Both the position numbers and the translations under genes were made by a program. The notes under the pieces are model-generated. The model was not told the DNA's origin. It did no database searches and was given only the letters and a program-made list of their open reading frames with translations. Source: a virus. Taken from it: a DNA stretch of 35,803 nucleotides. This document shows positions 3,934 through 34,089 of the stretch, piece by piece; positions within the stretch are counted from its first letter, which is position 1, and every line of letters starts with the position of its first letter. The stretch spans positions 1 through 35,803 of the IMG/VR virus record IMGVR_UViG_3300042476_000827; one strand, given 5' to 3'.

Positions 3934-4353
3934 ATGCACGAAGATTATGACGACAATGAATATGATGAAGATGATTATGACTATGATCATCCATCATTAA
4001 ATCCTTATCATTATTACTTTAAATTTGATGTATCGGCTGATAGTCCGCTGTCAAAATGGTTAACTGATATGTTTAATGATATAGATTGGAATCAAATACC
4101 TTCTATGCCATTAAATAGTGTTCCTGGCTTTCCGTTTGTTTCGTTACCTGTGAATAGTTGGAATCCCGATACTGGCAAGGGTAACTCCTTCCAGTATTTG
4201 GGATCCAATTATGCTGGTAGTCCAATATGGAAAACCAAATACTTTGCTATTGATAAAATTAACATAGAATATAAATTACATCTACAAACTCACGCTAAAC
4301 ATTTTGTTAGTCAACCAACCTATTACAATGGATTATTCGATATCCTAAATTAA
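3934..4353 (+). CDS. hypothetical protein with acidic N-terminus
   Basis: This 139-aa protein has no family I recognise. Residues 1-20 are almost all Asp, Glu, Tyr and Asn, similar in style to the C-terminal tail of the rIIB-like protein that ends 112 nt upstream. The remainder is rich in Pro, Asn, Trp and aromatic residues, with no membrane segment or signal peptide. The ribosome binding site is weak (AGAGA). It lies directly after the tRNA-like element, and its acidic start may derive from the same sequence as the rIIB tail. Confidence 0.65.
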   Translation: MHEDYDDNEYDEDDYDYDHPSLNPYHYYFKFDVSADSPLSKWLTDMFNDIDWNQIPSMPLNSVPGFPFVSLPVNSWNPDTGKGNSFQYLGSNYAGSPIWKTKYFAIDKINIEYKLHLQTHAKHFVSQPTYYNGLFDILN

Positions 4354-4360
4354 GAATATT

Positions 4361-4801
4361 ATGAGTAAAGAATTTTTTATTATCAACAACTTAGAAGATT
4401 TTGTTAATGCGACTAGGCGATTAGTGTTTAAAAACTTTGGAACAAATCCCGATGAGGATCTAAATTTAGAAGATATAATCACAAATTCATCTCCACAAGA
4501 TGAATCAGAAATGAATAATGTTCTATCTTATTCCGAATCATGCTCAATAGTAAAATCTTTCATAAAAAAACAAACCAATAAAAAGACAAAAGAAAATAGA
4601 TATGTTTTAGACGAAGAAATTTATATGTCTATTGTAATGTCTCTAAATGATAGGCTTGTGAGTAATATACTCAATGGTTTAGTAAACAAAGGTTTGGTCG
4701 AAACAGCATATGATGATAAAACAAATGACTTTGTATTTTGGATAACAGATGAGTATAAAGAAAACATCAAAAAAGATACAGAATCGCCAGAAACCGATTG
4801 A
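4361..4801 (+). CDS. hypothetical phage protein, possible winged-helix fold
   Basis: This 146-aa protein is acidic and soluble, with alternating predicted helices. The C-terminal half has a helix, then a LVNKGLVE-type turn near residues 107-114, then a short beta-like FVFWIT strand. That pattern resembles a winged-helix DNA-binding fold (inference only). It begins 7 nt after the preceding stop and overlaps the next gene by 53 nt in another frame, so it belongs to the same transcript as the RuvA-III-like and RuvB-like genes. Confidence 0.6.
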   Translation: MSKEFFIINNLEDFVNATRRLVFKNFGTNPDEDLNLEDIITNSSPQDESEMNNVLSYSESCSIVKSFIKKQTNKKTKENRYVLDEEIYMSIVMSLNDRLVSNILNGLVNKGLVETAYDDKTNDFVFWITDEYKENIKKDTESPETD

Positions 4802-5201
4802 ATACGATATACATTTAAACTATGTATGTAAACAATGCGGTCAAAAGCATTGGTTATCAATTAATGAAGCATCAACTAAAAAATTTAAAGTTGTGTGCGA
4901 TTGCGGACATATATTTGGTGTTAAAAGAGTTACGGGTTTTAAACTCATATTTCATAAAAAAACTACTCCTCCTATAAAACAAATAGAACAGGAGCAAAAA
5001 CCCATTGATATGAAACCTAAAGTAGAGATTATACCGAATGAATTACTAGATCAAATTGTTCCAACGCTCATTACTTATGGTTTTACAAAAAAAGAAGCAA
5101 TAGATATGTCAAAAACATCATATTCTAAATGCCCACAAAACGACGCTATTGGTTTAGTCAAACAAATATTGGAATCACTAAGGAGTCAGAATGTCAACTA
5201 A
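4749..5201 (+). CDS. zinc-ribbon protein with RuvA domain III-like C-terminus
   Basis: This 150-aa protein has two recognisable parts. Residues 25-55 form a probable zinc ribbon (C27-x2-C30 and C50-x-C52). After a Lys/Pro/Gln-rich linker, residues 97-146 align by eye with domain III of RuvA: a helix ending in an L-x-x-YGF-x-x-KEA turn (RuvA LVALGYKPQEA), then a second helix pair ending in KQILESL. In bacteria RuvA domain III contacts RuvB and controls its ATPase. The next gene is RuvB-like and overlaps by 11 nt, so a dedicated RuvB partner is a strong inference. The RuvA domains I and II that hold the Holliday junction are absent. The 53-nt overlap with the upstream gene is unusually long. 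Confidence 0.75.
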   Translation: MSIKKTSKKIQNRQKPIEYDIHLNYVCKQCGQKHWLSINEASTKKFKVVCDCGHIFGVKRVTGFKLIFHKKTTPPIKQIEQEQKPIDMKPKVEIIPNELLDQIVPTLITYGFTKKEAIDMSKTSYSKCPQNDAIGLVKQILESLRSQNVN

Positions 5202-6090
5202 TGTAATCAGACCATCAAAATTTGAACATATTATCGGCCAAACAGATGTTGTCAATCGCTTAAAAATTATGGTGTGTGGCTGTTTAAATACAGACAGTGT
5301 GATGCCTCATGTTTTAATAGACGGCCCGCCGGGGCTAGGTAAAACAACCATAGCGAGTTCTATAGCCAACGAACTCAATACTAATTTATACACTCTCAAT
5401 GCCGCTAGTATTCGGAGTATTAAAAATCTTCTACCATATCTCATGGGCATAGCCCCAAGATCAGTTTTATTCATAGATGAAATTCATAGATTACCTAAAA
5501 TAGTAGAAGAATTTCTTTATCCTGTTATGGAAGATTTTGTACTCAACATTACTGTAGATTCCAAACCAGAATCTATAGATCTTCCTATGTTCACATTGGT
5601 TGGTGCGACAACTAGTGGCGGAAGTTTGAGTCAACCATTCTATGATAGATTTACAATAAAAGAGCATTTATCCTTTTATACTACAGATGATTTAGCCAAA
5701 CTAGCAGGATTGAACGCAAAAAAGTTCGGACTAATGTTACAAGATAATGATCTATTGGAAATAGCGAAAAGAAGCAAAGGCACACCGCGAATTCTTAATG
5801 CTAGACTACAATGGTACAAGAACTACACCGCATTTTGTAAAAATAAAAACATAGATATTGATGAAATTTTTAATAGTCAGGGTATTGATAGTAGAGGATT
5901 AGATGTCTATGATAGACTATATTTAGAAGTATTACAAAAATCTAGAGGAAATCCGCTAGGACTTAAAAGTATATCTTCGATGACAGGAATTGCAATAGAA
6001 ACAATCGAGAACAGCATAGAACCATACCTAATAAGAGAGAAGTTTGTTATTAGAACTCCAAAGGGTCGAATCATAGGAGATAAAAAATGA
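5191..6090 (+). CDS. ruvB: RuvB-like Holliday-junction branch-migration ATPase
   Basis: This 299-aa AAA+ protein keeps the RuvB layout: Walker A GPPGLGKT at residues 45-52, Walker B with FIDEIHRL at 94-101, sensor 1 GATT at 138-141, a DRF arginine-finger region at 152-154, and sensor 2 GTPRILNARL at 197-206. A C-terminal winged helix ends in a YLI...RTPKGRI motif close to that of bacterial RuvB. It is about 35 residues shorter than cellular RuvB (around 335 aa). AAGGAG precedes the ATG. Bacterial RuvB drives branch migration with RuvA at recombination intermediates, and a phage copy suggests its own recombination or replication-fork processing. Most phages lack RuvB. The gene just upstream may replace RuvA. 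Confidence 0.9.
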   Translation: MSTNVIRPSKFEHIIGQTDVVNRLKIMVCGCLNTDSVMPHVLIDGPPGLGKTTIASSIANELNTNLYTLNAASIRSIKNLLPYLMGIAPRSVLFIDEIHRLPKIVEEFLYPVMEDFVLNITVDSKPESIDLPMFTLVGATTSGGSLSQPFYDRFTIKEHLSFYTTDDLAKLAGLNAKKFGLMLQDNDLLEIAKRSKGTPRILNARLQWYKNYTAFCKNKNIDIDEIFNSQGIDSRGLDVYDRLYLEVLQKSRGNPLGLKSISSMTGIAIETIENSIEPYLIREKFVIRTPKGRIIGDKK

Positions 6091-6802: not shown

Positions 6803-7807
6803 ATGTCAAAAGGTTTAGATGTCGGAACAAGTTTTATAGTATTATCAACACACATATCCGATGGTACTGTTGAATATAAGGATTTCAGGGATGCCTTTTA
6901 TATAATCAAACCCACTACGCCAGTTGCTACAAAAATGATTGAAAAAGGTCTTGCTGGTAAAGTCTTTATCAAAGATAGCGACGGTAGTTTTATCCTCTTA
7001 GGCAAAGATGCCATTGAAAAAGCCATAGAACGTAATGATACCGCTAAAAGACCAATGTACAAGGGCGTAGTGTCCTCAAAAGAAAAAGACGCAAAAAGAA
7101 TACTGGCATTTATTTTAAAAGAAGTAGTCGGCACAGCATCAGAGCCAAATGAAAAATTAGCGTTCTGTATTCCTGCACAACCAGTAGACCAAGAGGATGA
7201 AGATTTTGACGTTGGTTATCATGAAGATGTTGTTAAAACGATTTTATCAGAATGCGGATATAATGCTCGTGCTATTAATGAAGCCGAAGCATTATGTTAT
7301 GCGGAATTAGAGAATGACGAATATACCGGCATTGCTATTAGTTGCGGGGCTGGAATGACTAATGTTTGCGTAATGCTAAACGGCGAACCAACCGTTGTCT
7401 TTAGTACAACAAAATCTGGAGATTGGGTTGATCGTATGAGTGCTGTAGCCACCGGAGAACCAGACAGCGTTGTTCAGGCAGAGAAAGAGGGCGGTGGTTT
7501 TAAAATAGGTGAGCCCAATGAAAATCCAATTTTAGGTGCCGTGTCCGCTTATTATGATAGATTAATTGATTATACCACTAAACAATTATCTATCGCATTG
7601 AATGGTCACAAATCTTTACCTAAATTTAAAAATCCTCTCACGATAGTTATTGCTGGCGGAACATCTCAAGCAGAAGGATATATTGAAAAATTTGCTGAAA
7701 AATTAGTAGCAAATAATTTTCCATTAACTATTAAAGAAGTAAAACATGCCAAAGATCCGCTTCATGCAGTATCTAAAGGATGTTTGATAGCGGCTGAAAT
7801 ATTCTGA
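6803..7807 (+). CDS. actin/Hsp70-fold ATPase (ParM/MreB-like superfamily)
   Basis: This 334-aa protein has the five-part nucleotide site of the actin superfamily: a phosphate-1 loop (GLDVGTS) at residues 4-10, a connect-1 segment with EAEALCYAEL at 160-169, a phosphate-2 loop (SCGAGMTNV) at about 180-188, an adenosine motif (VIAGGTSQAEGY) at 282-293, and a connect-2-like helix (HAVSKGCLIAA) near the end. AAAGGG precedes the ATG. Relatives segregate plasmids, shape cells, or act as chaperone ATPases. In a phage, possible jobs are genome partition or positioning, or a scaffold in the infected cell. I cannot tell a filament former from an Hsp70-like monomer by eye. It overlaps the AlkB-like gene by one base. 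Confidence 0.8.
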   Translation: MSKGLDVGTSFIVLSTHISDGTVEYKDFRDAFYIIKPTTPVATKMIEKGLAGKVFIKDSDGSFILLGKDAIEKAIERNDTAKRPMYKGVVSSKEKDAKRILAFILKEVVGTASEPNEKLAFCIPAQPVDQEDEDFDVGYHEDVVKTILSECGYNARAINEAEALCYAELENDEYTGIAISCGAGMTNVCVMLNGEPTVVFSTTKSGDWVDRMSAVATGEPDSVVQAEKEGGGFKIGEPNENPILGAVSAYYDRLIDYTTKQLSIALNGHKSLPKFKNPLTIVIAGGTSQAEGYIEKFAEKLVANNFPLTIKEVKHAKDPLHAVSKGCLIAAEIF

Positions 7808-25402: not shown

Positions 25403-25430
25403 TTGACACAATATAAGCCAATGATACATC
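25403..25430 (+). promoter_or_regulatory. possible sigma70-like promoter, weak -10
   Basis: TTGACA at 25403-25408 and TACATC at 25425-25430 are 16 nt apart, with an extended TG at 25422-25423. The -10 is poor, and the site overlaps a strong hairpin, so either the promoter or the hairpin may be the real signal. Confidence 0.35.
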
Positions 25431-25447
25431 TTGTGTCGTTGGCTTAT
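25413..25447 (+). promoter_or_regulatory. 16-bp RNA hairpin in the gap before the coiled-coil membrane gene
   Basis: Bases 25413-25428 pair with 25432-25447 around a 3-nt TCT loop; 14 pairs are Watson-Crick and two are G-T. No T-run follows, so it is not a classical terminator. In a read-through transcript it could be an RNase III processing site or stabilise mRNA ends. Confidence 0.6.
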
Positions 25448-25466
25448 TCAATATAAAGGGCAACAA

Positions 25467-25787
25467 ATGTCAGAAACTATAATTCATTTTTGGGAAAATA
25501 TTGCAACTACTTCCATTGGAATTATAGTAACCATGCTAGGATTTTGGGTAGCCATAGGAAAAAATATGGTTACTAAAGCAGAAGTGGCCGAATTGATAAA
25601 AAATGAAAGTCCATATAATCAAGATCGTCAATTTATTATGGAAAGATTAGCAACTAATAAAGAAACCCAGGCCGCATTTGCATCAGCTTTACAGCGTAAC
25701 ACAGAAGTAATGAATGAACTAAAAGTACAAATTGCCACATTGGGGAAAACACTAGAAGCACTAGAAGATAGAATAGAAAGACACTAA
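25467..25787 (+). CDS. membrane protein with coiled-coil tail (holin/lysis-associated candidate)
   Basis: The ATG at 25467 (AAGGG upstream) gives 106 aa; an in-frame TTG at 25431 lies inside the hairpin and is unlikely. One membrane helix covers about residues 13-30, followed by a basic KNMVTKAEV stretch and a long heptad-like coiled coil to the end. The layout resembles small phage membrane proteins such as XhlA-like or spanin-like factors, but it is reversed relative to XhlA. Located at the junction of head and tail-fibre regions. Confidence 0.6.
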   Translation: MSETIIHFWENIATTSIGIIVTMLGFWVAIGKNMVTKAEVAELIKNESPYNQDRQFIMERLATNKETQAAFASALQRNTEVMNELKVQIATLGKTLEALEDRIERH

Positions 25788-25788
25788 C

Positions 25789-26193
25789 ATGGCAGCAACT
25801 CAATATAATTTTAGTATCGAACAAGGATCTTCGTTCAGACTAGCTCTAACATATAAAGATAGCGATGGTAATATAATAGACTTAACCAATTATTGTGCTA
25901 GACTAACCATGAAAATAGGTAGCGATGAATATAAAATATTTAGTAGTTTAGAAACTAATTTTGATGAATATAAATTTACTATTGATGGCCCTCAAGGAAC
26001 TATTAATCTATTAATTCCCGCAGAAGCCACCAATGACTACAACTTTAATTCTGCTAAATATGATCTAGAATTACAAAGTCCACAGGATCTATATGTTGGT
26101 GGAGGTAAATATACTATACGAGTTTTATATGGAACCATTACTATTATTAAACGATTTAGTCAATCAACAACATTACTAGACTGCGCATTATGA
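25789..26193 (+). CDS. tail-fibre or baseplate-associated beta-rich protein
   Basis: This 134-aa protein begins with a YNFSIEQGSSFRLALTYKD segment, a pattern I know from phage proteins encoded just before long fibres (BppU/fibre-anchor type). The rest is alternating strands without membrane segments. It starts 1 nt after the previous stop and overlaps the long fibre gene by 4 nt, so a role in attaching the fibre to the baseplate is likely but inferred. Confidence 0.7.
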   Translation: MAATQYNFSIEQGSSFRLALTYKDSDGNIIDLTNYCARLTMKIGSDEYKIFSSLETNFDEYKFTIDGPQGTINLLIPAEATNDYNFNSAKYDLELQSPQDLYVGGGKYTIRVLYGTITIIKRFSQSTTLLDCAL

Positions 26194-29100
26194 GCTGTTT
26201 TGATGTACAAATTTTAGATCCCAATATCAACACCATAGAAATCGAAACTTGTATTGGTGATCAGCCATCATCTATAGATATAGTTACATATGACAATACT
26301 GCACTAGTAGAAGTTTCTCATTGTATAGCATTATTGCCTTCGGATATTAGTGAGCTAATTCCTGTGCAAGATATAGTGGCTGGTAGTGGAATCTCAGTTA
26401 GTAGTATTAGTGGCATATATACTATTTCATCAAATAATAGTGATCCTGTAAGTCTATTAGAAACCGTACAAGATATTATTGGTAATAGTGGGTTATTAGC
26501 TGGAAATTATATTAATATTAATTATAACGATAATACAGGATTTACTACAATATCTGCCACTGGATTACAACCTAGTGGCAATTATGCTAATGCTATTCAT
26601 ACTCATACTAGTAGCGATATAACAGATTTTAATAGTAGTGTAAGCGGTTTGTTACCAAGTGTAACTGGCACTGGCTATGTCTCTTCGTCTTTTTCTAATA
26701 ATCTTTATACTATTTCTGTAACAGGACTACAACCTAGTGGAAATTATAGCGTTGATGGTCATACTCATACAAGCTCTAATATTACAGATTTTAACTCTAG
26801 TGTTAGCGGACTTCTTCCTGTTAAGAATATTAGTGCTGGCAGCGGCATAGGAATATCTTCAGTTTCTGGTGATTTTACAGTTAGTGTTACTGGGACTTTT
26901 GGTCTTACTGACGAAGAAGTTGATGATAGAGTAAGTAATTTATTAGTGGGTGGTAATTATGTAAATCTTAATTATAATGATTTAGGAAACAGTCTAATAA
27001 TTTCTGTTACTGGCGTTCAGCCAAGTGGAAACTATAGTTTAATTGGACACTCTCACAATACTAGTGATATAACAGACTTTAATAGCGGAGTAAGCGGACT
27101 CCTTCCTAGCGTTAGTGGCAGCGGATATATAGTATCGTCTTTCGCTAATAATATCTATACTCTTAGCGCTAGTGGGCTACAACCAAGTGGTAACTATAGT
27201 GTTGTTGGTCATTCACATGTTATAGCTGATGTTTCGGGATTGCAAAATGCTTTAGATAGTAAACAACCAAGTGGAGTTTATGCTAGTGGTATTCATTATC
27301 ATATTAGTTCTGATATCACAGACTTCAATAGTGCTGTTAGTGGATTGATTCCTCCGTCTAACTTTACTTCACTAACTGGATTAAGCGGAATAGTTGTCAC
27401 TAATAGTGGCACAAATTATTTTGTAACATTAAGTGATCCTACTATTCAACTAGCTGATATTACAGATCTATCTTCTAATGCTAGAACTTTTTTATTAACA
27501 CCGTCTAGTAGTAATCTTAATACTTTAATTAGTGATGAAACTGGATCTGGAAATTTAGTATTTAATAATAGTCCCGCTTTTAGTGGCACCCCAACTGTGC
27601 CAACAGCACCAAGCGGAACAAATTCTACCCAAATTGCTAGCACAGCATTTGTTAGAACAGAAATCAGTAACCTAATAGACTCCGCCCCATCAACACTAGA
27701 TACTCTTAATGAATTAGCAGCAGCACTAGGTGACGATCCTAATTTTGCCACCACTATTGCTAGTGGATTGGGACAAAAGGCAAATTTAAGCGGAGCTATT
27801 TTCACTGGATCAGTAACTATTCCTAGCGGAACTGGCAATTTTGATAGTTTAACAGTTGGAGGGGTGGTGGTGAGCATTAGTGGTCACTCTCACGTTACTA
27901 ATGACATCACAAACTTTAATTCATCCGTTAGTGGACTACTTCCAGTTAAAGACATATTAGCTGGTAGCGGTATTTCTGTATCATCGTCTAGTGGTATTTA
28001 TACTATTAATGCTGATATTAGTGGTGTCATAACAGAAGTTATTCAAGATAATTTAGGTAGTGGATTTTTAGTCGCTGGCACTGGCGTTCAATTAACATAT
28101 GACGATCCAGCTAATACTCTAAGATTGGATAATCTTCACACTGAAATTAATGAACTTAGTTTAGAACCTCAAGGATTTGTAAATAGACTTGATAGTGTTA
28201 TTAGCTTTAATGATAGTACCAGAACATTTACTATTGCTCCTAGTGGAGCAAGTTATGATGTTTATATTGAGGGAATTAAAGTTACTAAAACAACAAGCGA
28301 AAGTATTGTTATACCAACTGGAACTGCACTAAATTATCTTCATTTTAATACTGACACTGGATTATTGGATAATAAAACAACAGGATTTAATTTTGATACT
28401 GATGTACCGATAGCTTATATTCATTGGAATGCTGATATTAATCAAAGCACATTTTTTGGTGAAGAACGTCATGGAATCCGCATGGATAGTGTTACTCATA
28501 AATGGATACACAACACTTTCGGCATACAATATATTAATGGTCTTAGTATTGGTGGATACATCTTATTAGGTAATGGATCCTCTAACAGTCATGCTCAAAT
28601 TGATATATCTGATGGTGTTTTATATCAAGAAGATATAATTATAGATATTACTAATGATAATGGAATTAATAGTGCCAATGAATTTGTTCAAACACTTAAT
28701 CCAATAGCCTATATTCCTACCTACTATCATAGTGGTTCAACGGGACAGTGGGTAAGAGACTCTGCCACAGCGTTCCCAGTAAAATACAATGGAACACGCG
28801 CTCAGTACAATCTATTTAGTGGGGGAACTTGGACAATTCCAAACGTTACTAACGATAGATTTTTCGCAATGTGGATTGTGGCAACAAACGATATTAATGA
28901 TCCTATTCTTGCTATAGTTGGTCAAAGAGAGGATAGCAGTTTAAATAGTGCCGAGAGTCACAATAATTGGAATGATATTAATCTTACTAATATTCCAACA
29001 CAAGAAATAAGACCACTATATCGACTAATTTTTAAAACCAATTCTACCTATACAAATACGCCAAAGAGTAGCTTACAAAGTATACTAGATATACGAGTGG

Positions 29101-30458
29101 CTATTCAATCTACTGTTGCTGGTGTTGTTCAAAATGATCATGGTAGTTTATTCGGATTGGCCGATGATGATCACTCCCAATATGTGCATATTGATAATAA
29201 CAGAACCATTAGCGCACTTCATACTTTTAGTAATGGTTTGAATGCTGGTGGTCTTATTAATGCTGCTAGTGGTAGTTTTACATCATTAACTGTTAATGGA
29301 ACCGGAGTTAGTCTAAGCGGCCACACTCATACCAGCAGTGATATTACTGATTTTAATAGCACCGTTAGCGGACTATTACCTAGTGTTAGTGGAATCGGAT
29401 ATGCTACAACGTCATTTGCCAATAATATTTATACTGTAAGTGTTACTGGATTACAGCCCAGCGGCAACTACAGCGTTGTAGGCCATACCCACACCAGCAG
29501 TAATATTACGGACTTTAACAGTAGCGTAAGCGGATTGCTACCAATAACTAATATAGTTGCTGGTAGCAATGTAACAGTATCAACATCAGGAACTACCTAT
29601 ACTATATCGTCTAGTGGTACTGGTGGCGGTGGAACAACCATAACAAATTATGGTAACAATAGATTACTAACTAGCGATGGAACATCAACAGGTATAGTTG
29701 CCGAAAGTGGTATAGTTTTTAATGATTCTACAAAAATAGTGGATATTACTTACGATACTAGTATTGGAGATAGTGGTAATGTTCCAGGATTAAGAATTAC
29801 TGCTTACGATACTAATACTTCAGCTACTATGGGTGGAAGATTAATCTTTAGAAGATTTAATGGTACAGAATCCTCACCTTCTGGTTTATTAAATAACGAT
29901 ACTATTGGAGCTATAATATATGCAGCACCAAATACTAGCGGTATTGCTGAGACTGTTGGAAGAATATTAGGATCTGCGGATGGGGTTCTTGGGGGATCTA
30001 ATACTAGTCAACCATCAAAAATATCAATTATCACCAGCTCTGGTCCGAGCAGACTTGATAATGAACTAACTTTAGAATCTGATGGAGAAGTATATACTAA
30101 TGGATATATTACAGTAGATGACGGCATATCTGCTCCAACGCCTGTGTACAGTCTTGGAACAGTTAGCGGAAATACTGCTATTAGTTATGATGTAGATCGA
30201 CAAATACAAACAGTAACTCTTAATGGAACTAGTGTCAACTTTACAGAAGGTACCGGTTGGACAACAGCAAATCGAAGTGTTGATGTTGTGCTTCAAATTA
30301 CTGTAACTTCAACAACAACTGTTGCTTTTGATAGCGGGTTTGTAACAGATTGGTATAATACTTCTTTACCAACTTTCTCTTCTGGTGTTTATCTTATACT
30401 ATTACGTAGTATAGGATCGACGATTATACAAGGTCATTATATAGGCAAGAAAATTTAA
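26190..30458 (+). CDS. long tail fibre with GHTH/SSDITDF repeats
   Basis: This 1422-aa fibre is Gly/Ser/Asn/Thr-rich. It has about seven copies of a GHTHTSSDITDFNSSVSGLLP-like repeat unit (with variants IHYHISSD, GHSHVTND and so on). It also has a TAPSGTNSTQIASTAFV motif, an APSTLDTLNELAAALGDDP motif and a LFGLADDDHSQYVH motif, all typical of phage tail fibres. The N-terminus probably binds the baseplate side and the less repetitive C-terminal part the host. A beta-structured block lies at about residues 675-960. It is coupled by ATGA to the upstream gene. It is the largest gene in the window. Confidence 0.9.
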   Translation: MSCFDVQILDPNINTIEIETCIGDQPSSIDIVTYDNTALVEVSHCIALLPSDISELIPVQDIVAGSGISVSSISGIYTISSNNSDPVSLLETVQDIIGNSGLLAGNYININYNDNTGFTTISATGLQPSGNYANAIHTHTSSDITDFNSSVSGLLPSVTGTGYVSSSFSNNLYTISVTGLQPSGNYSVDGHTHTSSNITDFNSSVSGLLPVKNISAGSGIGISSVSGDFTVSVTGTFGLTDEEVDDRVSNLLVGGNYVNLNYNDLGNSLIISVTGVQPSGNYSLIGHSHNTSDITDFNSGVSGLLPSVSGSGYIVSSFANNIYTLSASGLQPSGNYSVVGHSHVIADVSGLQNALDSKQPSGVYASGIHYHISSDITDFNSAVSGLIPPSNFTSLTGLSGIVVTNSGTNYFVTLSDPTIQLADITDLSSNARTFLLTPSSSNLNTLISDETGSGNLVFNNSPAFSGTPTVPTAPSGTNSTQIASTAFVRTEISNLIDSAPSTLDTLNELAAALGDDPNFATTIASGLGQKANLSGAIFTGSVTIPSGTGNFDSLTVGGVVVSISGHSHVTNDITNFNSSVSGLLPVKDILAGSGISVSSSSGIYTINADISGVITEVIQDNLGSGFLVAGTGVQLTYDDPANTLRLDNLHTEINELSLEPQGFVNRLDSVISFNDSTRTFTIAPSGASYDVYIEGIKVTKTTSESIVIPTGTALNYLHFNTDTGLLDNKTTGFNFDTDVPIAYIHWNADINQSTFFGEERHGIRMDSVTHKWIHNTFGIQYINGLSIGGYILLGNGSSNSHAQIDISDGVLYQEDIIIDITNDNGINSANEFVQTLNPIAYIPTYYHSGSTGQWVRDSATAFPVKYNGTRAQYNLFSGGTWTIPNVTNDRFFAMWIVATNDINDPILAIVGQREDSSLNSAESHNNWNDINLTNIPTQEIRPLYRLIFKTNSTYTNTPKSSLQSILDIRVAIQSTVAGVVQNDHGSLFGLADDDHSQYVHIDNNRTISALHTFSNGLNAGGLINAASGSFTSLTVNGTGVSLSGHTHTSSDITDFNSTVSGLLPSVSGIGYATTSFANNIYTVSVTGLQPSGNYSVVGHTHTSSNITDFNSSVSGLLPITNIVAGSNVTVSTSGTTYTISSSGTGGGGTTITNYGNNRLLTSDGTSTGIVAESGIVFNDSTKIVDITYDTSIGDSGNVPGLRITAYDTNTSATMGGRLIFRRFNGTESSPSGLLNNDTIGAIIYAAPNTSGIAETVGRILGSADGVLGGSNTSQPSKISIITSSGPSRLDNELTLESDGEVYTNGYITVDDGISAPTPVYSLGTVSGNTAISYDVDRQIQTVTLNGTSVNFTEGTGWTTANRSVDVVLQITVTSTTTVAFDSGFVTDWYNTSLPTFSSGVYLILLRSIGSTIIQGHYIGKKI
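26600..29540 (+). repeat. in-frame fibre repeats (GHTH-SSDITDF type)
   Basis: Seven clear units and one partial are spread over this range, in the order ANAIHTHT, VDGHTHT, LIGHSHN, VVGHSHV (partial), SGIHYHI, SISGHSHV, LSGHTHT, VVGHTHT. The DNA copies differ by silent changes. They are spaced by fibre sequence, not by short unique spacers, so this is protein repetition and not a CRISPR. Confidence 0.85.
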
Positions 30459-30737: not shown

Positions 30738-31232
30738 ATGTACTATAATATTAATAATCAACAATTAGTCGATAGTCTACCAACTAGCATAACTCTAGAT
30801 AATGGAACAATAATTACTGGAGAAAATCTGGATAATAGTATTCTTGCTGAAGGTGGATACTATTTTGTTCGTAGTGATAATCCACCTCAACCAGAAAATA
30901 CAGTAGAAGATGTTTCTCAAAGAGTAGTTAATATTAATAAACCATATGTTGATATTACAAGAACATGGATACCAATTCCTATTGTGGTACCAGAAAGTAT
31001 TAGCGCACGACAAGTTCGCTTATGGTTAATCGATAACGATATTAGTTTAACAAGTGTTGAGGCCGCTATTGATACTATTGTTAACGAGAAATTGAGAGAG
31101 AAAACAAGAGTAGAATGGGAATATGCTCCTTATATAGAAAGAAATCATCCTCTTATTGAAAGCCTTGGTCAATATTTAGGATTATCTCCAGAACAAATTG
31201 ATCAAGGATTTGTAATAGCGTCACAGCTATGA
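30738..31232 (+). CDS. fibre-associated protein with helical C-terminal domain
   Basis: This 164-aa protein has an N-terminal domain related to the previous gene (about residues 1-80). A C-terminal helical domain carries ISARQVRLWLIDNDISL near 95-111, WEYA near 139-142, NHPLIESLGQYLGLS and an EQIDQGFVIASQL end. That tail is of a kind found in phage fibre-region proteins of unknown role. It overlaps the next gene by 4 nt. A duplication of the small gene followed by gain of the helical tail, or the reverse loss, is the likely history. Confidence 0.7.
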   Translation: MYYNINNQQLVDSLPTSITLDNGTIITGENLDNSILAEGGYYFVRSDNPPQPENTVEDVSQRVVNINKPYVDITRTWIPIPIVVPESISARQVRLWLIDNDISLTSVEAAIDTIVNEKLREKTRVEWEYAPYIERNHPLIESLGQYLGLSPEQIDQGFVIASQL

Positions 31233-32200
31233 ATACTTTCGTAAAAAATAATAGTTTATTAACCAATTTTAAATCTATTATTTATCCCATAGGTAGTAAT
31301 ACTGTGAATTGGTATAAAACAGCAAACTGGAATGGAACAACCACACTTACTGTTCCTGGAGGCAATGTAACTACAGTAGGAACCAACGGTGGTTCTAGTG
31401 CATACGGAACTTATGATCAAAGCGGACTAGTTGAAGAATATCTAGAAAATTACCAAAGTACTATTAGTGGTATAATCTATATGTATAGACATGCCGCTTC
31501 ATTTGATGATACCGTAAATTATTTAAGATATACTGATTTATTCAATATAAATATAGTAGCAGCTGGTGTGGTTAGAGGATTCAGAGTAGCCTCTTTAAAT
31601 AATCCGCATGGATATAATAATTTCATACCAGTTTGGGATGCTAATAATGTTGCCGCACCAAACGGATATGGTTCAGTACCATATTTATTTAATGTCGCTA
31701 AATATAATGTAACAAATAATGAGTATAAAGATTTTTTAATAGCAATAGCTTCCATAGATAATGCTCCAAGTGTTCCTAGTAATGTTTATTTAAATGATAT
31801 GGCAACAAATATTTCTGGTGGTATTACTAGGACATTGATTGGAGGAAGTGGAAGTAGTAGTCAATATGTATATACTGTAAAAGCAAATATGGGCAACAAA
31901 CCAATAAATTTTGTAAGCTGGAAAATGGCAGCACGATATATCAATTGGCTACATAATGGAAAACCAAGCGGGTCTCAAAATGCCGGAACTACAGAAGACG
32001 GAGCATATGATATCAATTTAAGTATACCAATTAGAAAAGTTGGAGCCAAATATTTTTTACCAAATATTAATGAATGGACCAAGGCTGGATTTTATAAAGG
32101 TGGTTCTACAAATGCCGGATATTGGTTATATGCTACCCAAAGTAATACTGTGCCAAATAATATTACAGCAACAGCAACAGGCGATGGTATTCTGGTGTAA
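31229..32200 (+). CDS. FGE/C-type-lectin-fold adhesin, apparently circularly permuted
   Basis: This 323-aa protein matches the formylglycine-generating-enzyme (SUMF1/FGE) family, but with its halves swapped. Residues 48-122 hold the normally C-terminal part (VGTNGGSSAYGTYDQSGLVEEY, later GFRVAS). Residues 131-323 hold the normally N-terminal part (VAKYNVTNNEYKDFL, NFVSWKMAARYINWLHNG, TTEDGAY, KYFLPNINEWTKAGFY). The family's usual order is the reverse. The fold is used by phages as a receptor-binding lectin-like domain, so an adhesin is the most likely role; enzyme activity is unlikely. Close sequence style to Planctomycete and cyanobacterial FGE-like proteins suggests transfer. ATGA overlap upstream. 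Confidence 0.82.
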   Translation: MNTFVKNNSLLTNFKSIIYPIGSNTVNWYKTANWNGTTTLTVPGGNVTTVGTNGGSSAYGTYDQSGLVEEYLENYQSTISGIIYMYRHAASFDDTVNYLRYTDLFNINIVAAGVVRGFRVASLNNPHGYNNFIPVWDANNVAAPNGYGSVPYLFNVAKYNVTNNEYKDFLIAIASIDNAPSVPSNVYLNDMATNISGGITRTLIGGSGSSSQYVYTVKANMGNKPINFVSWKMAARYINWLHNGKPSGSQNAGTTEDGAYDINLSIPIRKVGAKYFLPNINEWTKAGFYKGGSTNAGYWLYATQSNTVPNNITATATGDGILV

Positions 32201-32446: not shown

Positions 32447-32911
32447 ATGCCAATTTTAAGAATAAATGAATTTCCAGAAGGTAGCGGCAGTCTGAGTAAC
32501 GATGACGTTTTCTTATTTATGGATGATCCATCTGGTAGTGGTGTTACTAAAAAGATTAGTCTTAGTGAAATAAGTGCTGGTATTGGATATCCCACAGTAG
32601 TTCAACTTGGTAGTGTTAGTGGTACTATCAATACAGACGCTAGTCTTGGAGATATTTTTGATCTTACGTTAGCTGCTAGTGGTACTTTATCTAATCCAAC
32701 TAATCCCACAGATGGTCAAAGTTTACGCTGGAGAATCTCTCACAACGCTAATAGTTTAACTCTTAATTTTGGTAACCAATTTAAAATTCCTAGTAGTGCC
32801 ACAAGTCCACTACCTCTTAGTTCAACTAGCGGAAATATGGATATTCTTGGTGCTACTTATGATAGTAGCAGAAACAAGTGGGACATTATAGCTTTTGTAC
32901 CGGGTTATTAA
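32447..32911 (+). CDS. tail-fibre/receptor-binding component
   Basis: This 154-aa protein begins with the INEFPEGSGSLSNDDVFLFM and DDPSGSGVTKKISLSEI region that I recognise from phage tail-fibre tip or distal proteins. The rest is a beta-rich domain. A strong AGGAGG precedes the ATG. Its fibre-tail role is inferred from the N-terminal pattern and the neighbours. Confidence 0.75.
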   Translation: MPILRINEFPEGSGSLSNDDVFLFMDDPSGSGVTKKISLSEISAGIGYPTVVQLGSVSGTINTDASLGDIFDLTLAASGTLSNPTNPTDGQSLRWRISHNANSLTLNFGNQFKIPSSATSPLPLSSTSGNMDILGATYDSSRNKWDIIAFVPGY

Positions 32912-32928: not shown

Positions 32929-34089
32929 ATGGCAACTCTGTATTTCAACGGCGCGGTCGACAGCAACTGGAACACGCTCGGCAACTGGTGGAGCGATAAT
33001 GTATACTCCGTTCCTGCCACATCTTTACCTAGTAGTGCTGACGATGTTATAATGATTGCTGATTGTTTAACTAATAGCGGTAGTGGTGCTATAGTTAACA
33101 CTCTTACTTTTGATGGTGGTCCATCTAATGGCAGTGTGAGCGGCGGTACTGCAACGCTTGGCATAAATATTACGGCTATTCAAGTTTCGGAATATTATAC
33201 TATTGCAATTATAATAGATGCCTTCTTAACAGGCACACTAACCGCACACAAGGTTTATTTAACTGGAGCCTCTTATAGCGGAAATAATAATGGTATTATT
33301 AATGGTAGTGTATTATTTAATTCTCTTGGTTATAACAATGGTACTATCAATGGAAATGCTACCTTTGGTGCTGGTGGATATAATAACGGAAGCGGCTCCG
33401 TAAATGGTAACGCAATTTTTGAAGCATCGTCGGTAAACGAGGGATATATCGGAAATAATGCTACATTTATCGATATGATTAACTACGGATACGTAAATGG
33501 AAATGCTATATTTTATGGAGGTGCTGATAATTCTAATACTATCAATCAACATGCTACTTTTAATGATTATTCATACAACAACTCCGGCGGCACCGTCACC
33601 GGAGACGCCACGTTTAATGATTATTCATACATCAACGAAGGCACCGTCAACGGCGATGCGACGTTCAACGACAATTCGTACAACAACTACGGCACCTTCA
33701 CCGGAGACGCGACATTCAACGACAGTTCGTACAACTACAACGGCACGCTCGGCGTAGACGCGACGTTCAACGACAGTTCGTACAACAACGAAGGCACCGT
33801 CCCCGGAGACGCCACGTTCAACGACAGTTCATATAACAGCGGCGGCGGCATTGTTATCGGAGACGCCACGTTCAACAACAATGCGTACAACGACGGCGGC
33901 GTCAGTGGCAACGCGACGTTCAACGGCAGTTCGTACAACAGCGGCACCGTCACCGGAGACGCGACTTTCAATGACAGTTCGTACAACGGAAGCACTGGCG
34001 TTGTGAATGGCACTGAAACCTACGCCAATCGCACGCCGTTTCCGATCCCTCGCGGCATCAACGGTTCTTCCATTCTAGGAGTTATATAA
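32929..34089 (+). CDS. repeat beta-solenoid tail protein (GDATFNDSSYN repeats), mosaic codon use
   Basis: This 386-aa protein has a GNWWSD-type start, an Asn/Gly-rich middle, and about nine units of roughly 17 residues around (G/N)(D/N)ATFN(D/x)(S/Y)SYN from residue 209 to 353, ending in a short Pro/Gly tail. The pattern suggests a right-handed solenoid of a fibre or spike. The DNA from about 32950 to 32995 and from about 33580 to 34060 is GC-rich with C/G at third positions, unlike the rest of the gene and the window. Recombination with a fibre gene from a higher-GC genome is likely. Confidence 0.8.
   Translation: MATLYFNGAVDSNWNTLGNWWSDNVYSVPATSLPSSADDVIMIADCLTNSGSGAIVNTLTFDGGPSNGSVSGGTATLGINITAIQVSEYYTIAIIIDAFLTGTLTAHKVYLTGASYSGNNNGIINGSVLFNSLGYNNGTINGNATFGAGGYNNGSGSVNGNAIFEASSVNEGYIGNNATFIDMINYGYVNGNAIFYGGADNSNTINQHATFNDYSYNNSGGTVTGDATFNDYSYINEGTVNGDATFNDNSYNNYGTFTGDATFNDSSYNYNGTLGVDATFNDSSYNNEGTVPGDATFNDSSYNSGGGIVIGDATFNNNAYNDGGVSGNATFNGSSYNSGTVTGDATFNDSSYNGSTGVVNGTETYANRTPFPIPRGINGSSILGVI
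33553..33987 (+). repeat. tandem 51-nt coding repeats, AT-to-GC codon shift
   Basis: About nine in-frame units of 16-18 codons encode the ATFNDxSYN motif. Codons change near 33580 from AT-rich to GC-rich, while one unit (33613-33630) reverts to AT-rich codons. No spacers and in-frame repeats exclude CRISPR. Confidence 0.85.

Follow-up and report, generated by a model that had tools for sequence, protein, structure and literature searches.

The window analysed here, the whole 35,803-nucleotide stretch of IMG/VR virus record IMGVR_UViG_3300042476_000827, contains a gene (31229..32200, + strand, 323 aa) whose product appears to carry the two halves of an FGE domain in exchanged positions. Is this order a genuine circular permutation and, if so, how did it arise and what does a phage use it for? 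The reading we favour, to which we assign a probability of about 85%, is that the gene encodes a non-catalytic, circularly permuted binding domain of the FGE/C-type-lectin (CLec) fold, a member of a phage-specific family that acts as an exchangeable fibre tip.

Genomic setting of the gene

The gene, which we call the module gene, is sited among tail-fibre genes, all on the + strand. Upstream lies a large tail-fibre gene (26190..30458, 1422 aa) with the phage tail repeat PF12789 and matches to tail-fibre PHROGs. It is followed by a small conserved gene (30738..31232) that belongs to phrog_6034, a group of unknown function, and that overlaps the start of the module gene by an ATGA. The phrog_6034 gene also precedes the module in L010, the nearest relative, so that the gene pair is kept there. 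Downstream of the module gene is a tail-fibre-like gene (32447..32911) with a weak match to phrog_7760.

The sequence-only reading named an assembly artefact as one way in which it could fail. Four other IMG/VR records (L002-L005) encode the window protein at 100% identity, with two SNPs per 8.6 kb and none inside the module gene. Since the identical gene recurs in these records, an assembly artefact is excluded.

Some other features of the window deserve mention in their own right. Just 3' of the module gene region, positions 32929-34089 encode a 386-aa protein of imperfect repeats (GDATFNDSSYNN...). Upstream of the tail-fibre gene, at 25413-25600, identity to the otherwise near-identical records L008 and L017 drops abruptly, which is a mosaic boundary. 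Positions 6803-7807 encode a Volactin-family actin homologue (PF25216, E 2.5e-61), in what is a tailed phage.

Order of the two halves

The Pfam FGE-sulfatase family, PF03781, matches the window protein at 28.7 bits (cut-off 23.3), aligning residues 153-298 with profile positions 36-131, that is, with the N-terminal part of the profile only. All 75 of the 75 relatives examined match the same family at E 0.01 or better. We also constructed a native-only profile of 256 positions from 30 native-order sequences, drawn from planctomycete genomes and native-order records, with E-values calibrated to 20,000 sequences. Against this profile the window protein produces two matches in exchanged order: residues 19-122 align with its end (156-255, E 6.7e-6), and residues 132-315 with its start (2-170, E 6.8e-45). 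The same swapped pair of matches is found in 75 of 75 aligned modules; the native linear order of FGE parts thus occurs neither in the window protein nor in any of these aligned relatives.

Exchanging the halves in silico extends the Pfam match of the window protein to profile positions 36-196 and raises it to 32.2 bits. In a less diverged relative, the same operation converts two stretches totalling 68.9 bits into a single stretch of 84.3 bits that spans 36-253 of 255. When a profile of the permuted family is compared with solved structures, its first third matches the C-terminal parts of FGE folds and its middle matches their N-terminal parts. The native-only profile matches bear out the original observation that the C-terminal FGE half precedes the N-terminal one. 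The proposed boundaries at residues 122 and about 131 stand as well, but the first half begins at about residue 20 instead of 48.

The layout of the protein is then as follows. A short N-terminal extension (residues 1-21; 31229..31291), which is kept in L010, is followed by the ancestral C-terminal half (residues 22-122; 31292..31594), which carries the motifs ...GNVTTVGTNGG..AYGTYDQSG...GFRVAS and is supported by the native-only profile and by the match of the family profile to the C-termini of FGE structures in the PDB. A new linker, LNNPHGYNN (31595..31621), leads from the old C-terminus to the old N-terminus; across the family, the gap between the half-profiles at this point measures 5-11 aa. 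The ancestral N-terminal half, now last (residues 132-323; 31622..32197), contains the PF03781 match and the match to the start of the native-only profile, along with the motifs ...KYNVTNNEY...NFVSW..AARYINWLHN...NEWTKA...YATQSNTVP....

Predicted fold

Given 75 permuted modules as input, AlphaFold2 predicts a single domain for the window protein, with pLDDT 89.7 and pTM 0.90. A native-order control model reached pLDDT 44, because too few sequences were available for it, and is too poor for comparison. Foldseek is an order-dependent aligner that follows the chain, so that a permuted query can match only piecewise and weak support is to be expected from it. Its matches to FGE-fold structures were indeed partial, with E between 0.19 and about 5 and none below 0.001; they nevertheless ranked among the best matches, CarF (5aoh) first, with 5nxl, 8aru, 6s07 and PorK also present. 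A Foldseek search of BFVD returned nothing. The sequence-only reading had asked for a permuted match with one closed fold: the model supplies the closed fold, and the permuted match in the fold search is weak.

The permuted family and its native-order relatives

A query of four aligned modules brought up 198 relatives in IMG/VR. We retrieved the best 80 of these, from at least 71 virus contigs, and every one of the 80 loci holds modules in C-then-N order. The check on homologues in related phages is thereby answered: 71 or more viral contigs share the permuted junction. After two additional searches, one of which started from a native-order query, the totals over all searches stand at 110 distinct permuted versus 36 distinct native-order modules. 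All known members of the permuted family are metagenomic sequences, and a tblastn search of annotated phage records with two family members gave no match. One 151-kb phage contains ten permuted modules, five of them within a single frame of 3754 aa. It is uncommon for a family of naturally permuted domains to be large and well sampled, and in the literature searched we found no earlier description of a permuted FGE or C-type-lectin domain. Annotation that accepts one hit sees this sizeable set of putative phage host-recognition domains as half an FGE or as a PHROG 'kinase'.

Of the native-order relatives found, the closest are FGE-like PEP-CTERM proteins secreted by Planctomycetota and similar bacteria. 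They differ from the permuted modules in having native order and in lying off viral stalks; many of them have an N-terminus like a signal peptide and a tail of the PEP-CTERM type. PEP-CTERM-like tails accompany 28 of 32 non-redundant native-order modules and none of the permuted ones; judged by these tails, nearly all the native-order relatives look cellular. Three native-order modules (L043, L090 and L210) are instead part of long, fibre-like proteins that lack these tails. In L043 (1784-3541; the same protein as in L089), a permuted and a native-order module adjoin in one viral protein, in the order C-N-N-C. Two short IMG/VR records, L094 and L096, hold runs of three to five native-order FGE genes whose products have signal-peptide-like N-termini and tails of the PEP-CTERM type; both records are probably cellular DNA filed as virus.

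Among 392 Planctomycetota and 399 Pseudomonadota genomes we found no permuted modules besides those on two contigs of one MAG; all other matches were in native order. One of the two contigs (L085; the MAG is alphaproteobacterial) shares 98% identity with a viral contig, and we rejected this sole apparent case of a cellular permuted form. The contig (L085, L286) represents mis-binned phage and possibly points to the host. Viruses thus carry the permuted form almost exclusively, and cells the native one. The coexistence of both forms, once within one protein (L043), amounts to a natural experiment on why permutation is favoured.

Coupling between the halves

The strongest coupling of all pairs of module positions, at rank 1 with z 12.4, connects the halves. 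It joins residue 88 (31490..31492), the Arg of RGG in most relatives and His in the window protein, to residue 280 (32066..32068), the Glu of PTExEW in most relatives and Ile here. Arg and Glu are both present in 61 modules and both absent from 25, with 7 discordant. The equivalent pair is also common among native relatives; we therefore regard it as a native contact that has been kept across the permutation.

The coupling of rank 6 involves residues 31 (31319..31321) and 311 (32159..32161), Thr and Asn in the window protein, each of which is Cys in about half of the relatives. Both cysteines occur in 37 modules and neither in 50; the remaining 3 are discordant, with a cysteine displaced by two or three residues or an end cut short (87 of 90 modules agree; Fisher 1e-21). 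On a tree built without the two cysteine columns, each position undergoes about 17 changes. Five independent comparisons are well supported, and in all of them the two positions go the same way, never in opposition. Native relatives have no cysteine at the equivalent positions. That the two cysteines flank the break, and are present or absent together, suggests a disulfide staple that closes the new ends. From this covariation, a disulfide probably joins Cys31 and Cys311 in about half of the family, which makes a clear testable prediction: a disulfide that bridges the two ends of the module. The window protein has neither the Cys pair nor the Arg/Glu pair; L010 has both cysteines, as does the L020 module at 4334-5215.

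Origin of the permutation

Independent profiles, the closed-domain prediction, the coupling between halves and a junction common to so many viral contigs all back the proposal that the permutation is natural. Most likely, the family goes back to one ancestral permutation event, in a native FGE-like domain akin to the secreted planctomycete-type proteins. In the permuted modules, a loop of about 9 aa links what were the N- and C-termini (beta1 and beta5), and the break in the chain falls in the loop that separated the NEWYKA helix / YATQS segment from the GNVTTVG segment. The opening site would be the place at which FGE-type CLec proteins carry 'insert 2', as we infer from PMC6328139. The two halves would still pack as one closed domain in the style of a native FGE and, in about half of the family, a cysteine at each new end would close the break by a probable disulfide. 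The permutation would also re-site the stalk, which would no longer attach at the base of the fold but on a different side. This relocation may be the reason that fibres favour the permuted form, through a putative benefit in orientation.

In a tree of the concatenated halves, all permuted modules group together with a FastTree support of 0.89. By the AU test a single permuted clade is not rejected (p 0.79), the constrained tree being better than the free one, but a tree of the N-terminal half alone does not recover this clade. A single permutation at the origin of the family is thus likely, as judged from these trees, and not proven. An origin by tandem duplication and trimming, as the sequence-only reading suggested, is plausible, though the ends of the modules are clean, with no leftover duplicate. 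We also considered a 12-bp direct repeat, AGTAATACTGTG, at 31295 and 32141, which is the only repeated 12-mer in the module gene, as the source of the rearrangement. We rejected this candidate: because relatives have clean, non-overlapping module ends, the repeat is taken as chance. On balance we incline to the broader proposal that one FGE permutation founded a large phage-only adhesin family and re-sited the stalk relative to the variable face, with the staple gained and lost repeatedly as a pair.

Alternative explanations

The most serious alternative is a domain-swapped oligomer, in which the C-terminal half of one chain completes the N-terminal half of another and no closed permuted monomer exists. 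Fibre proteins are often trimers, and couplings between halves look the same whether the contacts are within or between chains. We nevertheless consider a swap unlikely, given that AlphaFold2 closes the monomer with high confidence, that only 5-11 aa link the halves, and that modules stand alone between flexible Thr/Pro linkers, as suits a self-contained domain. C-N-stalk-C-N arrays, which do exist, could alternatively be read as native tandem arrays with stalk linkers inserted inside each domain, so that the C-N order is only apparent. This can hardly be correct, however, when as a rule the modules, the window protein included, are lone C-N units that have no partner half on either side, and when the arrays themselves lack end halves. 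The 12-bp repeat near both ends of the gene could also hint at an assembly artefact or a recently rearranged pseudogene, a notion that becomes negligible once the same junction is seen in four identical independent records, in a 65% identical relative and in more than 100 homologues.

Two further alternatives concern the function of a domain that is truly permuted. The family resembles FGE, EgtB, SenA and PvdO models, and might comprise working enzymes of the formylglycine-generating or sulfoxide-synthase type; yet the window protein contains no cysteine, and the position of the FGE catalytic cysteines lands in the hypervariable segment, which makes an enzyme extremely improbable. The module gene might instead be the target of a diversity-generating retroelement (DGR), as are genes for other phage proteins of the FGE-type CLec kind: DGRs commonly act on this class of fold (PMC6328139), and the variable segment is found where theirs is. 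A search for reverse transcriptase (RVT_1) in 20 related virus records, however, gave no match, and a DGR target is unlikely on that account. Moreover, the variable segment is identical across five records of the window phage and lies in mid-gene instead of at the 3' end, so that we hold this alternative to be very improbable.

Proposed adhesin role and exchange of tips

We return to the permuted module as a putative non-catalytic binding domain. With no cysteine at all, the window protein lacks the catalytic cysteine pair of FGEs, and FGE catalysis is therefore excluded. The PF03781 family, including FGEs/SUMF (1y1e, 2aft, 1y4j), CarF (5aoh) and PorK/GldK, has the motifs of both halves and the Arg-Glu contact in common with the permuted modules. 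The modules differ from PF03781 and the solved FGEs in their swapped halves and their predicted location on phage fibres, and the window protein also in its lack of catalytic cysteines.

Residues 73-116 (31445..31576) form a hypervariable segment that matches in position the variable beta3-beta5 region of CLec proteins of the FGE type. Mean column entropy is 3.0-3.2 bits at residues 73-88 and 96-116, versus 0.9-2.2 bits at most other module positions. In CLec proteins of the FGE type, the corresponding face binds the ligand (PMC6328139). DGR variable proteins of the FGE/CLec subtype (Mtd, TvpA 2y3c, TaqVP) likewise combine the FGE-type CLec fold with a variable beta3-beta5 face; the permuted-family profile matches TvpA, and the window protein shares the variable segment and, by prediction, this fold. 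Unlike the permuted modules, these proteins have native order, with the variable region at the extreme C-terminus, and a reverse transcriptase serves them. A CLec domain is also displayed on a phage protein in tentaclins and other phage receptor-binding proteins that bear one (PMC10743442). There, the CLec domain is DUF6273-like, with Ig stalks, and the paper makes no reference to circular permutation.

On phage fibres the domain would act as a tip or bead that can be exchanged, in many cases carried by a Thr/Pro-rich stalk, and its hypervariable beta3-beta5 segment would touch a ligand on the host surface. Stalks rich in Thr, Pro and Ser flank modules upstream in 38 of 100 cases and downstream in 37, and 28 of 100 modules run to the stop codon. 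Gene position, stalk linkers, the hypervariable segment and a pair of phages with different tips lend indirect support to the adhesin role first proposed from the letters of the gene. The 'new fibre tip surfaces' that were to result are better described as a move of the attachment point: the stalk would join elsewhere, with the variable face remaining the usual FGE/CLec one. From its variability and the exchange of tips, the permuted module is predicted to bind a receptor on the host surface.

The phage pair in question, L020 and L085, offers the strongest hint at function. Its flanks are 98-99% identical and it has a stalk gene in common, with different ends: the Thr/Pro stalk terminates in a permuted FGE module in one (L020, 3941-5236) and in an unrelated Asp-box-like repeat domain in the other (L085, 307-1650). 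This is a natural tip swap, as expected for exchangeable receptor-binding tips.
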